A DNA stretch of 64,000 nt from Chitinophaga sp. 180180018-3 (GTDB lineage Bacteria; Bacteroidota; Bacteroidia; Chitinophagales; Chitinophagaceae): positions 6,874,001-6,938,000 of the forward strand of contig NZ_CP140772.1 in NCBI RefSeq assembly GCF_037893185.1, written 5' to 3'. A program made the position numbers and the translations under genes. The notes under the pieces were generated by a model. It saw only the letters and a program-made list of their open reading frames with translations. It had not been told where the DNA came from and ran no database searches. Every line of letters starts with the position of its first letter. Position 1 is the stretch's first letter. Below are positions 3,517 through 50,900 of the stretch, piece by piece.

Positions 3517-3590
3517 GCAATAAGCCTTCAATAAAAAAATGCAGCGGGGAGATTACTTCCCGCTGCATTTTTTTATTGAAGGCTTATTGC
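3517..3590. terminator. Bidirectional terminator between pdxA and the winged-helix gene
   Basis: A perfect 32-bp inverted repeat (3517-3548 with 3559-3590) has a 10-nt loop. The GC-rich inner stem GCAGCGGG is flanked by seven T on the plus side and seven A on the other, so it can terminate both converging transcripts. The outer arm reaches within six bases of the convergent gene's stop. Confidence 0.88.
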
Positions 3591-6870: not shown

Positions 6871-6966
6871 ATTAAGAAGGAGAAGGAAGAATTAAGGAGA
6901 AAAGCGAAGATAGCAGCGAATTTGATCTCCGCTTTTCTCCTTAATTCTTCCTTCTCTATTCTTAAT
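6871..6966. repeat. Long palindrome, GAATTAAG family (copy 1), probable bidirectional terminator
   Basis: Left arm 6871-6906 and right arm 6930-6966 are inverted copies with one short indel. The right arm ends on the base next to the TAA of the giant gene (6967-6969). Arms contain tandem ATTAAG / GAATTAAGG units, as in the copies at 28.2, 32.8 and 43.3 kb. The loop (AGCGAAGATAGCAGCG) resembles the inner arm of the 43.3-kb copy. Its position after a very long gene and before the divergent-side receptor promoter fits a terminator. Confidence 0.75.
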
Positions 6967-28151: not shown

Positions 28152-28266
28152 GAAAGAAATAAGAATAGAGAATATAGAATTAAGAAATAGCGGGAAGACC
28201 TTAGCAGATAGTATTAATCGCTAAGGTCTTCCCGCTATTTCTTAATTCTTTCTATCTATTTCTTTC
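28152..28266. repeat. Long palindrome, GAATTAAG family (copy 2), probable terminator
   Basis: The inner arms 28176-28205 and 28220-28249 are a perfect 30-bp inverted repeat around a 14-nt loop. Imperfect outer arms (GAAAGAAATA-rich) extend the structure over the stop codon of the next gene (28256-28258). Arm and loop sequence (GAAGACCTTAGC ... ATCGCTAAGG) match the copy at 32.8 kb closely. Confidence 0.8.
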
Positions 28267-32730: not shown

Positions 32731-32849
32731 GAGAATTAAGAATAGCGAATATAGAATTAAGAAATAACGAGAAGACCTTAGCGATTAATAATTATCCGCT
32801 AAGGTCTTCTCGTTATTTCTTAATTCTATATTCGCTATTCTTAATTCTC
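32731..32849. repeat. Perfect 53-bp palindrome, GAATTAAG family (copy 3), bidirectional terminator
   Basis: Arms 32731-32783 and 32797-32849 match at all 53 positions around a 13-nt loop (ATTAATAATTATC). The structure starts one base after the kinase stop (32727-32729) and its other end covers two bases of the porin TGA (32848-32850), so it fills the whole convergent intergenic space. The inner stem GAAGACCTTAGCG is shared with copy 2. Confidence 0.9.
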
Positions 32850-43267: not shown

Positions 43268-43318
43268 GAATTAAGAATATAGAATAGGGAATTAAGAATG
43301 AAAGCGAAGAATTTAGCG
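43268..43318. repeat. Left arm of an IS-split palindrome, GAATTAAG family (copy 4)
   Basis: This 51-nt arm is the inverted match of 44801-44851 with one mismatch. The two arms were presumably a single hairpin before the IS3 element inserted in the loop. The flanking loop remnant GATAGTATT matches the loop of copy 2. Confidence 0.85.
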
Positions 43319-43376
43319 GATAGTATTTGGAGTGAACCCAAAAGGTTAGACGTTTTTTAAAAATAAAGAGATTAAG

Positions 43377-44180
43377 TTAAATGGCCTGAGTTCGGTAATT
43401 TACAGGGCTCAGGCCATTTAATTTTAGTTTGATTCTATCGTTATTGTAGTAGCCAATATATTCTTCAATCTGCTGTTTTAAGACTGTAATAGAGTCAAAT
43501 TTTTCAAGATAGAACAACTCTGTTTTTAGGACACTAAAGAAACTCTCCATAGCAGCATTGTCCAAACAATTACCTTTTCCAGACATGCTCTGCTCGATAT
43601 TGCAGTCAATCAGCATCTTTTGATATTGTTTCATCTGGTATTGCCATCCCTGATCAGAGTGTAATATCAGTTTACTATCGGTAGGCAGCCTGGGGAGGGC
43701 ATTTTGAAGCATATCAATGATTGGCTGAAAGGTGGAGCGTTCCGATAGACTATAACTCACTATTTCCCCATTGTACAGATCCATTATAGGAGAAAGATAG
43801 AGCTTTTGATCTCCTACCACAAACATGGTTACATCTGTAACCCATTTTTGGCAGGGCTTCTCTGCTTTAAAATCCCTCTTTAGCAGATTGGGCGCGATTC
43901 TGCCCTGCTGCCCTTTATAAGATCTGTATTTTTTTACCCTGACCAGGCTTTTCAAATTACAGGCCCTCATCATTTTCAGTACTGTCTTGTGATTAATTTC
44001 CCTGCCTGATCGCCTCAATGCTGCTGTTATGCGTCTGTAGCCATATCTACCTTTATGCTGATGATAAAGCGCTGTTATTGCTCCTTTTAATATGGCATGT
44101 TTATCAGGTACTGACACTTGTTTGAGATAGTAATAATAAGTACTTCGAGCCATCCCTGCCACCTTCAGCAGTAACTCCAA
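43377..44180 (-). CDS. IS3-family transposase OrfB (DDE integrase core)
   Basis: A 267-residue catalytic part. An N-terminal HTH_21-like region (KGRYGYRRITAALRR) is followed by an rve-type integrase core. The catalytic triad is Asp in KWVTDVTMF, Asp in LHSDQGWQY and Glu in NAAMESFFSVLK. The first codon of this frame is TTG and there is no convincing ribosome site. The real product is expected to be OrfAB, made by -1 frameshifting within orfA. The frame is open back to the slippery site. Confidence 0.92.
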   Translation of the reverse strand: MELLLKVAGMARSTYYYYLKQVSVPDKHAILKGAITALYHQHKGRYGYRRITAALRRSGREINHKTVLKMMRACNLKSLVRVKKYRSYKGQQGRIAPNLLKRDFKAEKPCQKWVTDVTMFVVGDQKLYLSPIMDLYNGEIVSYSLSERSTFQPIIDMLQNALPRLPTDSKLILHSDQGWQYQMKQYQKMLIDCNIEQSMSGKGNCLDNAAMESFFSVLKTELFYLEKFDSITVLKQQIEEYIGYYNNDRIKLKLNGLSPVNYRTQAI

Positions 44181-44194
44181 TGAATAATGCGGCC

Positions 44195-44749
44195 TTAATT
44201 CTCTGATGGCTCTTGCCGCTTGTTTTGATCCTGAGCGGCTTTCTCTTCCTGAATTAAGGCATCCAACTTTTTTAGGTAGGCATTCTCCGCCCGCAAATAC
44301 AACAGCTCTGCCTCTAAAGCCGCTAGTTTGGCCTGTGTTGGATCTGTTACTGGTTTTTTACTCTTTTTCGATTTTTTTGTCATCGTCGAACTTTTTCGGC
44401 CTCTTGTCTCTTTTAACAACCCGGCAGCTCCCTCTCGTTCATACTTTTTAAGCCATCGACCAACTATATTATCCTGGGTAATACCAAAAATCATGGCTGT
44501 TTGCATTAAAGATAACCCCTTTTCAAACATATACTGGAGCACCTGGAATTTAAATGTTCCTGTATAATTACCTGGGCGCTGCTGTAATCCTGCTTGTCCA
44601 TGAAGCTTATAAAGATTGACCCAACGGTGAATTGTGGTATCGGTGCCTCCGATCTTGCGGGCAGCTGAGCTAAATGTGTCATGACCTGACAGTACGGACT
44701 TAACTGCTATTTGCTTTTGCGCTAAACTGTATTTGATTCGCTTATCCAT
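44195..44749 (-). CDS. IS3-family OrfA (helix-turn-helix protein)
   Basis: A 184-residue DNA-binding subunit with two HTH units (DTFSSAARKIGGTDTTIHRW and LSLMQTAMIFGITQDNIVGRW). A Lys-rich linker and a leucine-zipper-like coiled coil (LAALEAELLYLRAENAYLKKL) follow. This is the layout of the IS150 group. The frameshift heptamer is near the C-terminus. OrfA alone normally represses transposition, and OrfAB is the transposase. Confidence 0.9.
   Translation of the reverse strand: MDKRIKYSLAQKQIAVKSVLSGHDTFSSAARKIGGTDTTIHRWVNLYKLHGQAGLQQRPGNYTGTFKFQVLQYMFEKGLSLMQTAMIFGITQDNIVGRWLKKYEREGAAGLLKETRGRKSSTMTKKSKKSKKPVTDPTQAKLAALEAELLYLRAENAYLKKLDALIQEEKAAQDQNKRQEPSEN
44267..44273 (-). promoter_or_regulatory. 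Programmed -1 frameshift site of the IS3 element
   Basis: On the minus strand the orfA codons CTA AAA AAG present A AAA AAG in the correct phase (X XXY YYZ). After a -1 slip the frame reads without a stop into orfB, passing through IRELRPHYSLELLLK, the usual OrfAB junction. Confidence 0.85.
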
Positions 44750-44800
44750 AAAAATGCCCCCATAAAGTGTCTAACTTTTTGGGGGCACTTCAATTATAAT

Positions 44801-44851
44801 CGCTAAGTTCTTCGCTTTCATTCTTAATTCCCTATTCTATATTCTTAATTC
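44801..44851. repeat. Right arm of the IS-split palindrome (copy 4)
   Basis: This 51-nt arm is inverted relative to 43268-43318 with one mismatch. Its end covers two bases of the macroglobulin TGA stop (44850-44852), the same overlap as copy 3 has with the porin stop. Confidence 0.85.
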
Positions 44852-47800
44852 ATTCTGTAACTTTTACACTCAATCCACTGCTATGCGCTGAAAACTCAGG
44901 CGCATACATACATTGCGCAGTACTGATGCCATTAGAAAATTTTCCCTGATGCGTAACAAACAACGTATATTCGAATACGTGAGTGCCTTTGGGAAGATAG
45001 CTGAAGAAGAAATCAGTAGAGGCATCCCGGGTGCTTTCGTAATAGCTCATTCCATTCTGCCATTTAGCAGCGCTGATTACATTCACTGGTTCGAAGCAGG
45101 CTGCCCGCATGTCTTTCAGGTGGATGTATTCCATATCTCTGTCGGCTCTCATCACCACGCGTACTTTCACTTTATCTCCTACTTTCAGCTGGTTGCCTTC
45201 TTCGATTTTCGTCAGCACCGGTCCTTTATCGGTGTTCACTTCTTTGAACAGTTCCTTTTCCAGCACTAATGGTGTGGCGGCAGCCGTGATCTTATCCAGG
45301 TCCTGGAAATATTGCCAGTATACGGCCCCCCAGGAGGGTTGTCCTTTGCTGTCGTGTACTGTTACGGTAATATTGCCCATATCAGGTTTCACTGCTTTGG
45401 CATCGAATCTCTCTTTAAAATAACCAGTACCTGCTTCTGTAGCTGCAGGTTTCACTGCGGTACTGCCCAATTGGATATTCACTTCCGGTGCAGCGGCCAG
45501 CCAGTTACTTCCCTGCAACAGCATTGCGTAACAGGCATCGGCTGTGGCTTTGGTTGTATGCCAGTTATTGGTCTGTTTATTTTTCAGCAGCCAGGTTTTC
45601 ATATCGTTCACGGCGGCGGCATCATTACCTGCTACCTGAAATGCTTCGATCAGCAGGGCCTGTGTTTCGATTGGTGCGTTCCGCCAGCTATAACCGGCTG
45701 CTATATCTTTCCAATACATTCCCATTTCTTTGCTGTTCATCGCATTTTCTTTCAGCGATTTCAGTATAGCCTTTGGCGTTACCTGATCATTATTCCTGAA
45801 GAGCGATAAAGCAATCATTCCCTGTGCATACCTGCTTTGTTTCAGCCAGTATTTCTGCTGCTGTGCATAGAAATAATCGAACGACTTACGGAAGGCCGCC
45901 GGAACCGGACGTTTAAAAAAGCTGCGGGCATACAGATAGTGGATCTCTGTATCGGTGATATGTTCCCCTTTCAGATCTGCCTTTTGTTTGATCAGCTCAT
46001 GGTAATCCTTATCCAGTTGTATGTCGAGATACTCCATTGCTTTATTGGCAATGTCGCTGGCTCTGCTGTCTTCTTTACCAGTAAGCTGCTGTAAATGACC
46101 GAGGCCGGCCAGTATGTACTGTGTTACAAATCTATCGTCCCACATTCCTGTGAACCATGGGAAAGCACCATTGGGTGCCTGTTTGGCAGCCAGCTGATCC
46201 AACGCTGCTTTTCCTTCCTTTTGCATACGCTGCAGATCGAACAACAATGCAATATGCTTTTTCTGTTCTGTTTCATTCTTTGCCGCCATCACCCAGGGTG
46301 TTTCCTGCAACAGTACATTTTTCAGTTCCTGGTTTTTCTCCAGGTTACTCATCAGCGCTGCGGTATCTGCTGTTTTCCATTTCTCAAAAATGGCATTCAG
46401 CTTAGGCGTGGCGTTCGCGATGTGAGTAGCAAGGGTATTGGCATAATAGCGGTTGAATACCTGCTCTGCACATTCGTAGGGAAACTCCATCAGGTAAGGC
46501 AATGCCTGCACTGCATACCAGGCAGGATTGCTGGTGTATTCCACGGTAACGGCATGTTGTGAAAGGGTTTGATCGCCGCCACTCTGCAACAGCTTATTAA
46601 AGCTAAATTCATGCTTACCATCGCCTCTTACCGGCAGTGGCAGCGATTCTGTTACCAGCATACGATTGGTCAATACCGGCACCGCATTCTCTTCTCCATC
46701 GCTGAAGTTACCGGCCTGCGCCACCACTCTGTATACAAGCGCACTCTGGAAACCATGCGGGATCTGCAGCGGGAAAGTCACTACGGTACTCTGACCTGCT
46801 TTTGCGGTGAAGTGTTGTGTTGGGAATATATTCTGAAACCATCCATCAACAGGCTGCATGGTGGCTGCATCCAATAGCTCCAGGTGTGCCTGGCCTATCA
46901 GCATGGAATCCGAGAGGTTAGTTACTTTGGCGGTAAATTCCATTTTATCGCCTTCACGTACAAAGCGCGGCGCATTGGGCTGTATCATCAGCATTTTCTG
47001 CGTAACGATACTGTTTTTCACGAGGCCGAATGAAAGGTCCTTTGTATGTGCCAGTCCCTGGAAGTTCCATTTGGTAAGGGCTTCCGGTACGGTAAAGCCG
47101 AAACTGATGTTGCCATCTTTATCAGTACGCAGGTCCGGCAGGAAAAATGCTGTTTCCTGGAAGTTGGTACGGACAGGCATTTCGGCCGCAGGAGCTGGCG
47201 GGGCCTGGTTGGTACCTGCTGATTCCTTTACTTTGTTCTGTTCCTTATCATTTGCCGAGACATCCTGTTTCGCCACTGTTTCCATCATAGCAGCAGGTGC
47301 CGGCGCTGCTTCTACAGTTGCATAGGCGGCATTTTTGCTCAGCATTCGCCGTTGTATGCCCGGTGCACCAGCGCCATATGCCATTATTCTATGTTGGCTC
47401 CACATATTCCATCCAAAGAGATTCAGCTGATCATATGTCTTGTCTTTCTTAGGATAGTAGTTGCCATGATAAGGATTGTACAGCGTGTTGGAAACCTCTA
47501 TTTTAAAGTTAGCATTTCCTTCAAAGGCAGCAGCATTGGCGGCAAACGGGTTGATGCCTGGCAGATACCAATCGCCCGGACTGAAAGCATCGAGCGAAGC
47601 ATCATACATAGATGCCAGCATTTCCGCAGCTACCTTTTCCTGTTTATAACCTGAGATCTGTACCGTCCATTTTTCCTGCTCACCGGGCAACAGTTTATCA
47701 CGATGGGTGCCCAGTTTTACATCCAGGGCTTTATTATCCCAGGGAACGATGATGCTGGGATGTACCGTAAACAGGCGGTTGTCTTTTACAAAAACATACC

Positions 47801-50800
47801 CCAGCTCTATGTTACCACGATCATTTTCTGTAACCGGGAAATCCAGTTTTTTAACGCCCGATAGTTCCAGTGTTCTACGTATATCTTTGTCGGAGGTAAC
47901 GGTACGTTTCGATTCGATTATATGCAACCCGGTAACCGAAGTTCCCAGCAGCAATGCCGCTGTTTTCCCCGGTTCCACGCTGTGCTCAGGCTGATATGTC
48001 CATAAATAAGATGGCACCGACAATGTTTTCGCAGCCGGATCAACGATCTCGAAAGTTTTCCGCTGCACTACTGAATCGTTATGATTATCGATGGTGCTCA
48101 CTTCCATTTCATAAAATCCCGGAGCCAGCTTTTTGGTATCCAGTTTTATTCTACCCTCTTCAGTGGCAGCTACGGTTTCTTTCACCACCGCCTCTTTGCG
48201 TGGCCATGATTTCGGGTCATCTTCGTTTTTGTAGATGTCCAACGGAAAATCCTTTATGTAGCTGGATTCATCCATCACAAACTGATCTGGTTCATCCCAG
48301 TAACGATGGCGCAGCAGGCGTTTTGCCGGCTCCAGTGGTTTCAACTGCACCGTAAGCTGAGCCGGCTGAAATGCGCCATTCAGATTTGTGGACGATATCC
48401 TGATTTGGTCCAGATCTTTTTGTTCCAGGCGATCCGGAGCGGTGATACCGATTTCCATCGACTGGTAACCGGCATTCACGTATTGTTGTGAACTGCGGGT
48501 TTCTCCGTTCAGATCAGTAACATCCGCGAAAACCTCGTAGTTAAAGATCGGTTTTGTAGTCGGGCTTACAGACTTATCGGCCAGTGCCGGGAATTTGACA
48601 GTGAAAGCTCCGTTGGCATCCGTAGTAGTTTCTCCATGTGCAATTTCCCTTGAGCTGCCGCGTGGAATTATCTTCCAGTGAAACAGCCAGGGATAAGGAA
48701 AGCGTACATGGCGTACTACCCTCCAGGTTACCTTTGCCCCATCAATATTATTTCCGGCGTAAGCCAGCGCTTTTGCATGGGTAGTAACGGTATCGCCTAA
48801 ACGATAGTTACCCTTGATGGTATCGAATTGTACATAAAACTTCGGGCGTTTGTATTCTTCCACCTGGAAAGCACGATGAGCATTAGCACGGTTATCCTCC
48901 AGCGCAAAGCTGCCATTCATACGGCCTTCGGGTAATGTGAATTTACCGGAATAAGCGCCATAATCGTTGGTGGTAACTTTAATGGAATCTACCTTATCAC
49001 CATTGGCATCTGACAAGGTGAGGGTGGTGGTATAATTTGCAAGGATATCGCTCCGGGAAGCATTCGGTGCTTTTCTGATCACAATTCCTTTGAAATAAAC
49101 AGTCTGCCCAGGGCGATATATGCCTCTGTCGGTGAACAGAAAAGTTTCTATCTGTTCTTTCTCTGATAATTCTACGTTATAAAGCTGGTATTTGTATTCT
49201 GTCAGATACAATTCGTCTGCTGCTTTCTTCCAATGAAGACGCACGCTGTTCATATTTTTAGGAGTAGCAATGTTTACACTCCCATCTGCTCCTGTAACGC
49301 CGCTTTTATACAGGCTCCAGTTTTCCTGGTTATTCTTGTAATCATATTTCATTACATTGAGCGTTACCCCGGCCAACGGCTTTCCGGAAGTGCGATCCAA
49401 GGCATAATACAAATCGCCGTTGCTGATATAACTGATGGATGAAACCCATGTCAATTGTATAGCCAGCGGATTATTTTCTGTAGAAAAGGCAGGAGAAGAG
49501 CTTGCCAGCAATATATAATGCCCTACCGGCAGTGCGTCGATTTTAATTTCTGTATTGTGCTGTAAGTAATCGGCCGGATCCGGTAATGGCTGCTGCCAGT
49601 CTTTGACAGACTGACGGCCTGTTATCAGTTTCCAGTATTTCTGCTGACGATCGGAGTAGTCCGCCTGAGCCTTCTGCAATTGGGCAAGAAATTCCTCGTC
49701 CACTTTAATCACCCGCAGATACAGTTTATTGATATTTTTATAAGTAACCAATGTACGGAATGCCTGATCCGGCACATTCACTACTTCAGTGGTCAGCAAC
49801 AGGGCTTTTGTTTTCAATTGTTCCAGCATTCTTGCACACTCCACGCCGCCGGAAGAATTGGGCGCCAGTTCAACTGCCTGCTCGCAGAGTTCCTTCGCTT
49901 TTTTAAGCGCAGCAGCCCTGTTTTCCATCGTTTCATTGCCCTGATTTCCGGCTTGTACGTAGTGGGTAGCGAGCATACTCAATACAGCGGCCTGTCCTGG
50001 ATCACCGGCATTAGCCTGCCGGAGTTGTTCCAATGCGGCCACATAAAGTGCATCTTTATTCTCCATTACGCCGGCCTGGTATGCATATGCGATTCTTTCG
50101 AGATCTATATCCAGGAGGGCGGCTTTATCGCCGGTATGCAAACGTGTAAGCTCCTGCAGGATCAGCAGGGCCTGGAATTGCAATGATGCCGGATCGGACG
50201 AAGTAAAAGTATGACCGCCAAAGGTTGCAGCCGGCGCAAATACAGCAGGGTCGGTCAGTTCAAATTGATTGGCTGGTTTAGTGATAGTAGCCTCACCGGA
50301 TTTAAAGAAATCCAGGGCCCTGTGTGCGAGCAGATCGTACAGGGTAGGACGTAGTGTCCGGGTATTTCCCTTCACAATAATCGGATCGAACGATGTGAGC
50401 GCCGTTTTTTCCAGCGAGGTCCTGTCGGCCAACGATCCCATGTAGGCAGCCGAGATCTCATGAAATAACCTGTCGGCCCCCCACGTGGTAATATCGTTAC
50501 CGGTATCGTTTGCCAGTGTGGTGCGTCCGAGCAGCTGATAACGATTATTGAGATAATAATACCGGAGTACGTCTCCTTTAATACTTTGCAGGATCGCTTT
50601 CTGAGGACCGGCAGCAGCGGCAATTTCCCGGTTAAGCTGTTCGAGGTTCTGCAATGTGCTGCTGTCGTTGACTTCGTCGTTATACTTCATACGATAGATC
50701 AGCGCTTTGATCTGCTGCACAGTCATTTTTTCCTTCACAGCATGGCTATAGATGCCATTTACTATCTCCAGGGCTGATTTGGGCAGTCCCTTTTCTTCGA

Positions 50801-50900
50801 GGGCTGTCACCTGTTTCCATGAATTGTCGTAGTTAAACTGGGCCATCATCTTAGAGCTGCTAACAATTAAAACAAAGAATATTGCGGTGAATAAACGCAT
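44850..50900 (-). CDS. Bacterial alpha-2-macroglobulin family protein
   Basis: A 2,016-residue secreted or periplasmic protein with a signal peptide (MRLFTAIFFVLIVSSSKMMA). It has an N-terminal TPR-like region (about 30-400), MG domains including MG2 (GIYRPGQTVYFKG near 591), an Ala/Pro/Lys/Glu-rich linker at about 1200-1240 that could be the bait region, then the A2M domain (NFQETAFFLPDL) and the thioester domain with CAEQ (Cys1477). The intact C-x-E-Q implies a reactive thioester that traps attacking proteases covalently. No lipobox is present, so surface anchoring by lipidation is not indicated. No PBP1C gene, a common partner, is adjacent. Confidence 0.9.
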   Translation of the reverse strand: MRLFTAIFFVLIVSSSKMMAQFNYDNSWKQVTALEEKGLPKSALEIVNGIYSHAVKEKMTVQQIKALIYRMKYNDEVNDSSTLQNLEQLNREIAAAAGPQKAILQSIKGDVLRYYYLNNRYQLLGRTTLANDTGNDITTWGADRLFHEISAAYMGSLADRTSLEKTALTSFDPIIVKGNTRTLRPTLYDLLAHRALDFFKSGEATITKPANQFELTDPAVFAPAATFGGHTFTSSDPASLQFQALLILQELTRLHTGDKAALLDIDLERIAYAYQAGVMENKDALYVAALEQLRQANAGDPGQAAVLSMLATHYVQAGNQGNETMENRAAALKKAKELCEQAVELAPNSSGGVECARMLEQLKTKALLLTTEVVNVPDQAFRTLVTYKNINKLYLRVIKVDEEFLAQLQKAQADYSDRQQKYWKLITGRQSVKDWQQPLPDPADYLQHNTEIKIDALPVGHYILLASSSPAFSTENNPLAIQLTWVSSISYISNGDLYYALDRTSGKPLAGVTLNVMKYDYKNNQENWSLYKSGVTGADGSVNIATPKNMNSVRLHWKKAADELYLTEYKYQLYNVELSEKEQIETFLFTDRGIYRPGQTVYFKGIVIRKAPNASRSDILANYTTTLTLSDANGDKVDSIKVTTNDYGAYSGKFTLPEGRMNGSFALEDNRANAHRAFQVEEYKRPKFYVQFDTIKGNYRLGDTVTTHAKALAYAGNNIDGAKVTWRVVRHVRFPYPWLFHWKIIPRGSSREIAHGETTTDANGAFTVKFPALADKSVSPTTKPIFNYEVFADVTDLNGETRSSQQYVNAGYQSMEIGITAPDRLEQKDLDQIRISSTNLNGAFQPAQLTVQLKPLEPAKRLLRHRYWDEPDQFVMDESSYIKDFPLDIYKNEDDPKSWPRKEAVVKETVAATEEGRIKLDTKKLAPGFYEMEVSTIDNHNDSVVQRKTFEIVDPAAKTLSVPSYLWTYQPEHSVEPGKTAALLLGTSVTGLHIIESKRTVTSDKDIRRTLELSGVKKLDFPVTENDRGNIELGYVFVKDNRLFTVHPSIIVPWDNKALDVKLGTHRDKLLPGEQEKWTVQISGYKQEKVAAEMLASMYDASLDAFSPGDWYLPGINPFAANAAAFEGNANFKIEVSNTLYNPYHGNYYPKKDKTYDQLNLFGWNMWSQHRIMAYGAGAPGIQRRMLSKNAAYATVEAAPAPAAMMETVAKQDVSANDKEQNKVKESAGTNQAPPAPAAEMPVRTNFQETAFFLPDLRTDKDGNISFGFTVPEALTKWNFQGLAHTKDLSFGLVKNSIVTQKMLMIQPNAPRFVREGDKMEFTAKVTNLSDSMLIGQAHLELLDAATMQPVDGWFQNIFPTQHFTAKAGQSTVVTFPLQIPHGFQSALVYRVVAQAGNFSDGEENAVPVLTNRMLVTESLPLPVRGDGKHEFSFNKLLQSGGDQTLSQHAVTVEYTSNPAWYAVQALPYLMEFPYECAEQVFNRYYANTLATHIANATPKLNAIFEKWKTADTAALMSNLEKNQELKNVLLQETPWVMAAKNETEQKKHIALLFDLQRMQKEGKAALDQLAAKQAPNGAFPWFTGMWDDRFVTQYILAGLGHLQQLTGKEDSRASDIANKAMEYLDIQLDKDYHELIKQKADLKGEHITDTEIHYLYARSFFKRPVPAAFRKSFDYFYAQQQKYWLKQSRYAQGMIALSLFRNNDQVTPKAILKSLKENAMNSKEMGMYWKDIAAGYSWRNAPIETQALLIEAFQVAGNDAAAVNDMKTWLLKNKQTNNWHTTKATADACYAMLLQGSNWLAAAPEVNIQLGSTAVKPAATEAGTGYFKERFDAKAVKPDMGNITVTVHDSKGQPSWGAVYWQYFQDLDKITAAATPLVLEKELFKEVNTDKGPVLTKIEEGNQLKVGDKVKVRVVMRADRDMEYIHLKDMRAACFEPVNVISAAKWQNGMSYYESTRDASTDFFFSYLPKGTHVFEYTLFVTHQGKFSNGISTAQCMYAPEFSAHSSGLSVKVTE

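Follow-up and report, generated by a model that had tools for sequence, protein, structure and literature searches.

Several insertion sequences (ISs) are known to insert in palindromic DNA. The IS3-family elements IS1397, ISKpn1 and ISPsy8 insert in REPs, and for IS1397 and ISKpn1 experimental REP targeting has been reported (PMC1525189). In Pseudomonas syringae, all five copies of ISPsy8 (5/5) have entered a REP hairpin at its symmetry axis and are flanked by a 3-bp duplication (PMC1525189). IS1272 and TnSha1, of the IS1182 family, target staphylococcal hairpins, some of them terminators, whose sequences are little conserved; the stem is cut bluntly, part of the hairpin is deleted and no duplication is made (PMC4923244). 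REPs and REPINs that occur together with a RAYT (IS200-like) form sets of hundreds of extragenic palindromes per genome. The transposase of IS1272 and TnSha1 belongs to a family different from IS3, and IS1397 is IS150-like. Our literature search, with most subscription journals outside its reach, did not find general hairpin or terminator targeting stated for the IS150 group, and the available part of PMC6211511 holds no statement that we recognised of such targeting for the group as a whole. REP targeting by IS3 elements is thus already known, and what the locus described here would add, judged from sequence comparisons, is the use of hairpins of many sequences and of a long Chitinophaga repeat.

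The window (the whole stretch of 64,000 nucleotides of Chitinophaga sp. 180180018-3 DNA that we analysed) contains an IS3-family insertion sequence of the IS150 group on the minus strand (43328..44792, 1,465 bp). OrfA, the helix-turn-helix half of the transposase pair (44195..44749, minus strand), matches the Pfam families HTH_28 and HTH_Tnp_1, and OrfB, the DDE transposase, matches rve, rve_2 and HTH_21 (43377..44180, minus strand), with an open frame of 326 aa that reaches further upstream than this domain span. The two frames overlap, and the overlap contains an A6G heptamer (44267..44273, minus strand, located from the sequence and the frames), a probable -1 frameshift site with the role that a slippery site has in the IS3 family. 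The element is bounded by TG...CA terminal inverted repeats, with the outermost bases TGGAGTGAACCC and TGAAGTGCCCCC at 43328 and 44792, and by a 3-bp target duplication, ATT (43325-43327 and 44793-44795). The earlier note had recognised the IS and placed its terminal repeats at 43331 and 44789; the element is indeed present, and its true ends lie three bases further outward on each side. The rve OrfB with an HTH OrfA, the overlap with its A6G heptamer, the TG...CA ends and duplications of 3, 3, 3, 3 and 4 bp at the copies in this genome are all as in the IS150 group. A strong hairpin carried by the IS spans the OrfB stop (43377..43421, minus strand; 14-bp outer stem, from an inverted-repeat search and folding) and is a possible terminator; the RNA of 43328-43440 on the minus strand folds with -24.8 kcal/mol (z -4.3). 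Rfam families gave no match in the 64-kb window at gathering thresholds.

The IS splits a long palindrome. Comparison of the flanks confirmed that the left arm (43268..43318) and the right arm (44801..44851) are inverted copies of 51 bp with one mismatch that lie outside the IS, as had been claimed before, and an inverted-repeat scan extends the pairing to 60 bp at 92%. Between the arms and the IS are a left loop remnant (43319..43327), of which the last three bases are the ATT duplication, and, on the right, the second ATT followed by the right loop remnant (together 44793..44800), both assigned by flank comparison. The likeness of these remnants to the loop of the palindrome at 28176-28249, which the earlier note had pointed out, is also seen when the two are compared by eye. 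The right arm ends on the stop codon of an alpha-2-macroglobulin gene (44850..50900, minus strand; MG2, A2M and bMG10 domains), which has its 3' end against the palindrome and a TGA that includes the two final bases of the arm. The earlier note suggested that the insertion may have altered termination behind this gene; since the IS transposase runs in the same direction as the macroglobulin gene and ends in the strong hairpin of the IS, the loss of termination may be small.

The genome (one contig, 8.13 Mb) holds five near-full copies of the IS (99-100%). A search for further copies and their flanks, as proposed earlier, placed all five inside the loop of a long palindrome (5/5) and none in a non-palindromic site. 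The arm stretches measure 51, 29, 57, 50 and 45 bp and differ in sequence from copy to copy; the duplications are ATT, ACC, ATT, ATA and ATTA (the last of four bases), and the hairpin centre lies 0 to 6 bases from the duplication. Loops of the palindrome family described below make up less than 0.1% of the genome (extrapolated from ~300 copies and a loop of median length 18), which excludes chance as the reason for five copies out of five in such a loop. The proposed order of events, in which a hairpin existed first and the IS then landed in its tip, is supported by the position of all five copies in loops, by their differing arms and by the presence of empty palindromes.

These five sites resemble those of the REP-targeting elements in that each copy occupies the loop or axis of an extragenic palindrome (5/5). 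Like ISPsy8, the window IS is an IS3-family element with a 3-bp duplication that inserts at the hairpin axis; the host phylum and the target repeat are different, and ISPsy8 has been described as REP-specific and not as hairpin-general. The likeness to IS1397 and ISKpn1, which use enterobacterial REP/PU repeats, again lies in the IS3 family and the insertion in palindromic repeats. Unlike their reported target, a single short REP family, the Chitinophaga repeat has arms of up to 57 bp and occurs in another phylum, and the relatives of the window IS use hairpins of many sequences. With IS1272 and TnSha1 the element shares hairpins as targets, but it hits the loop, and duplications of 3-4 bp are found at 5/5 own copies in place of a deleted part of the hairpin. 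Beyond the five IS copies the genome has no rve matches, and therefore offers no control elements of its own. A lone stretch of 38 bp matches the right end of the IS (89%) with the rest of the element absent (genome 4974187-4974224; L011 1501-1538), and is itself palindromic: AGTGCCCCCAA ... TTGGGGGCACT.

The palindromes that carry the IS belong to a repeat family. A sample of 1.264 Mb, made up of the window and sixty stretches of 20 kb, contained 80 palindromes with a score of at least 16, of which 47 are in the family by our motif rule; extrapolation gives a family of ~300 per genome, with arms of median length 42 and loops of median length 18. Exact matches to the motif GCGAAGA(6-36)TCTTCGC are found at 85 places in the genome, and matches to a reversed-pattern control at none. 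Three empty members in the window were folded: 32731..32849, with perfect inner arms of 53 bp and a 13-base loop between convergent ORFs; 28176..28249, with perfect arms of 30 bp and a 14-base loop; and 6880..6956, with arms of 32 bp. For 45 members of the family both neighbouring ORFs are available (from our own simple caller): 20 members are in convergent gaps, 23 in tandem gaps and two in divergent gaps. Convergent gaps are over-represented (p = 0.00015), and palindromes are scarcer in divergent gaps than the 25% expected from intergenic bases (p = 0.0003). Most are found at the 3' ends of genes, and in this they resemble 3'-end hairpins. The arms vary between repeats but remain self-complementary, with 18/47 perfect and a mean of about 0.9 mismatches in the scored arm (for example 32731-32849), and this near-perfect self-complementarity of differing arms requires some mechanism by which the two arms of a repeat stay matched. 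Across the genus the motif is patchy: it occurs in 41/60 genomes, with 318 matches in one and 0-3 in many, and because the reversed motif reaches up to 26 in some of these genomes, the low counts are perhaps due to chance. Palindromes outside the family are also present, among them one with 35-bp arms of another sequence type between convergent ORFs in the window (3517-3590) and further ones in the 1.264-Mb sample.

The number of these extragenic palindromes, hundreds per genome, is reminiscent of REPs and REPINs with their RAYT, although the Chitinophaga arms are much longer than those of typical REPs. An origin as RAYT-driven REPs was rejected: the REP-associated Y1 transposase (PF01797) has no match in this genome, whereas five of 14 control genomes were positive. 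Other intergenic hairpins with a stem of at least 8 number about 1460 in the same genome (extrapolated). If all hairpins were equal targets, finding 5/5 copies in family palindromes would have p = 8e-5, and hence the window IS favours long stems or the stem sequence of this family.

To compare sites beyond this genome, we joined the flanks of related elements and scored stems around the duplication, with a threshold of at least 8 pairs centred within 7 bases. The relatives were the best 80 of 398; 23 were dropped for want of a flank or of recognisable ends and one (L078) for wrong ends, which left 56 readable relatives with 56-75% OrfB identity and, with the five own copies, 61 loci. Their hosts are Bacteroidota, Pseudomonadota and, in metagenome bins, Bacillota. 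Of these 56 relatives from the best 80 of 398, 34 reached the stem threshold; when the flanks of all 61 loci, with our own palindromes among them, were cross-paired as a null, 6.9% of the 3660 pairs did so. The 48 bases at the site fold, as DNA, with a median energy of -9.7 kcal/mol, compared with -3.5 and -3.9 kcal/mol for the two flanks (p = 2e-10); the energy at the site was also below that of the cross-pairs (p = 1e-17), and in 40/56 relatives it was below the energies of both flanks. Exact duplications of 3-5 bp are present at 47/61 loci and absent at 14/61. The 22 of these 56 relatives that stayed below the threshold include, by eye, some short terminators or imperfect hairpins and several imperfect Pseudomonas REPs; a central hairpin was unconvincing in L074, L084, L090, L092, L094, L133 and L142. 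In one of the dropped relatives (L091, from an Eubacteriales bin), long inverted arms flank the IS.

Three more Chitinophaga copies are centred on hairpins of other sequences (3/9 loci scorable; one locus had no ends found and five lacked a flank). In one Flavobacterium, two multi-copy elements have terminator-like hairpins at 3/3 and 4/4 copies by eye, the three copies of the first being counted among the 56 relatives as well. By contrast, distant rve elements in other genomes had a central stem of at least 8 in none of 12 scored copies (0/12); L196, L203 and L209 have undefined ends and were left unscored.

On the basis of these sequence comparisons, the window IS, a member of the IS150 group, probably inserts by choice in hairpin loops, where most of its readable relatives also sit, and would be guided there by shape and not by sequence. 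The hairpins used in this Chitinophaga are those of the long ~300-copy palindromic family, mostly at gene 3' ends. What the transposase complex recognises may be the shape of a hairpin or cruciform, or the two-fold symmetry of that shape, instead of a sequence, with recognition of the extruded hairpin as the step that we prefer, and the element would gain a safe landing site between genes.

An unlikely though serious alternative is that the transposase reads its palindromic target as sequence, in the manner of common dimeric DNA-binding proteins, for which no extruded hairpin is needed. GCGAAGA is common to all five own stems, so sequence recognition would be compatible with the own copies alone, and the terminators among the targets have an A-tract and GC-rich features in common. 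Among the relatives from the best 80 of 398, however, no common stem sequence was seen, the stems of our genome are unlike all others, and the pair of A- and T-tracts is missing in 7/34 hairpin sites, L136 and L138 among them; the duplicated bases have no consensus by eye. The lack of a shared stem sequence across the clade favours recognition of shape or of two-fold symmetry.

Slightly less probable still is that the element is drawn to a paused polymerase or an RNA hairpin at terminators. A left A-tract and a right T-tract, as in intrinsic terminators, accompany 27/34 hairpin sites (best 80 of 398), the own palindromes lie at gene 3' ends, with 2/45 in divergent gaps, and a distant IS3 element sits 24.5-30 bases beside terminator hairpins in five of six copies. 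Insertion nevertheless takes place at the stem-loop axis and not in the U-tract, where polymerase pauses, and a plain T-tract after the stem is absent in the long Chitinophaga palindromes and in REPs. It is very improbable that insertion is random and harmless copies in gene-free 3' regions persist: the window site and the family palindromes are intergenic and near gene ends, but adjacent intergenic bases would be equally harmless, yet at 33 of the 34 hairpin sites the centre is no more than 3 bases away from the duplication, and off-centre 5-base bins from 5 to 40 bases are nearly empty (0-2/56 reaching 8 in each; best 80 of 398). A reading of the arms as long terminal parts of the mobile element, which their symmetry about the IS might suggest, deserves almost no credence and was rejected, since the arms of the five copies differ and enclose the duplication, and empty family palindromes are common, so that they are foreign to the IS, as had been surmised.

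The same locus was compared in sister species through the neighbouring FAD-dependent oxidoreductase, found at E 1e-80 or better in 14/25 genomes including our own. In eight of the 13 sister species the end of the macroglobulin gene lies upstream of the oxidoreductase, and five have another neighbour. None of the eight has a long palindrome in this gap, an empty hairpin with 51-bp arms included. A short, ordinary terminator-like hairpin is present in six (L171, L172, L173, L179, L180 and L182; three found by script, three by eye) and no hairpin in two (L177 and L178). The IS is absent from all 13 sister loci, and a match to its transposase with an E-value of 1e-60 or better is present in 6/60 genomes of the genus, our own included. 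A search for an empty orthologous site with the right flank of another locus (L147) returned, in genomes other than that of L147 itself, short and weak matches only.

In a quick tree, the window transposase pairs with that of another Chitinophaga (L063; support 98*) and belongs to a group of 75 rows, supported at 97*, that also contains ISKpn1, IS150, ISPsy9 and ISEnfa3; the five distant rve elements and a Priestia element lie outside this group. The long rows of ISKpn38, ISAtu3, ISBmu11 and ISLla3 are inside it with unsure placement, and the plasmid copies L216, L217 and L218 were used for the tree only.

In Pseudomonas sp. KUIN-1, an ISPsy9-like element has REP-like repeats at 4/4 copies by eye; the stems score only 5-6, which by that score is no better than controls, and the folding energies are lower (-7.5 to -11.5 vs 0 to -4.1). 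A 60%-identical ISPsy8-like element of the same strain occupies REP-like sites in 5/6 copies read by eye. Where IS150 lies close to hok genes in Escherichia coli, its flanks contain inverted stretches, such as AGCCCCAGG and CCTGGGGCT at hokE (by eye, unjoined flanks). Eight plasmid copies were inspected by eye: the flanks of ISEnfa3 (L163), the Priestia element (L167) and ISLla3 (L168) are hairpin-like, the two IS150/ISKpn8 copies (L164 and L166) lie in similar DNA, with a hok gene beside L166, and no clear hairpin was seen at ISPsy9 (L162), ISKpn1 (L165) and ISAtu3 (L169).

We tentatively extend the preference for hairpin loops to the group as a whole, a proposal on which we are almost evenly divided: shape-guided integration may be basal to a large IS150-like transposase clade in at least three phyla, whose members would read extruded hairpins of any sequence and insert in the loop, with intrinsic terminators and REPs as general safe harbours and host repeats with long, perfect arms as sinks that attract the element. 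The few isolated cases of REP targeting would fall under one rule that can be tested for a large group of ISs, namely targeting by DNA shape at hairpin loops, and the long Chitinophaga palindromic repeat family would join the known IS targets. If true, this would explain where such elements land across bacteria, help to study how cruciforms or hairpins are extruded in living cells, and offer an integrase that is independent of sequence yet precise in position.

A different IS3-family element was observed in one Formosa genome (L229-L234). Five of its six copies lie 24.5-30 bases beside an intact terminator hairpin with a stem score of 13-15, and this element perhaps represents a second kind of terminator-linked targeting.
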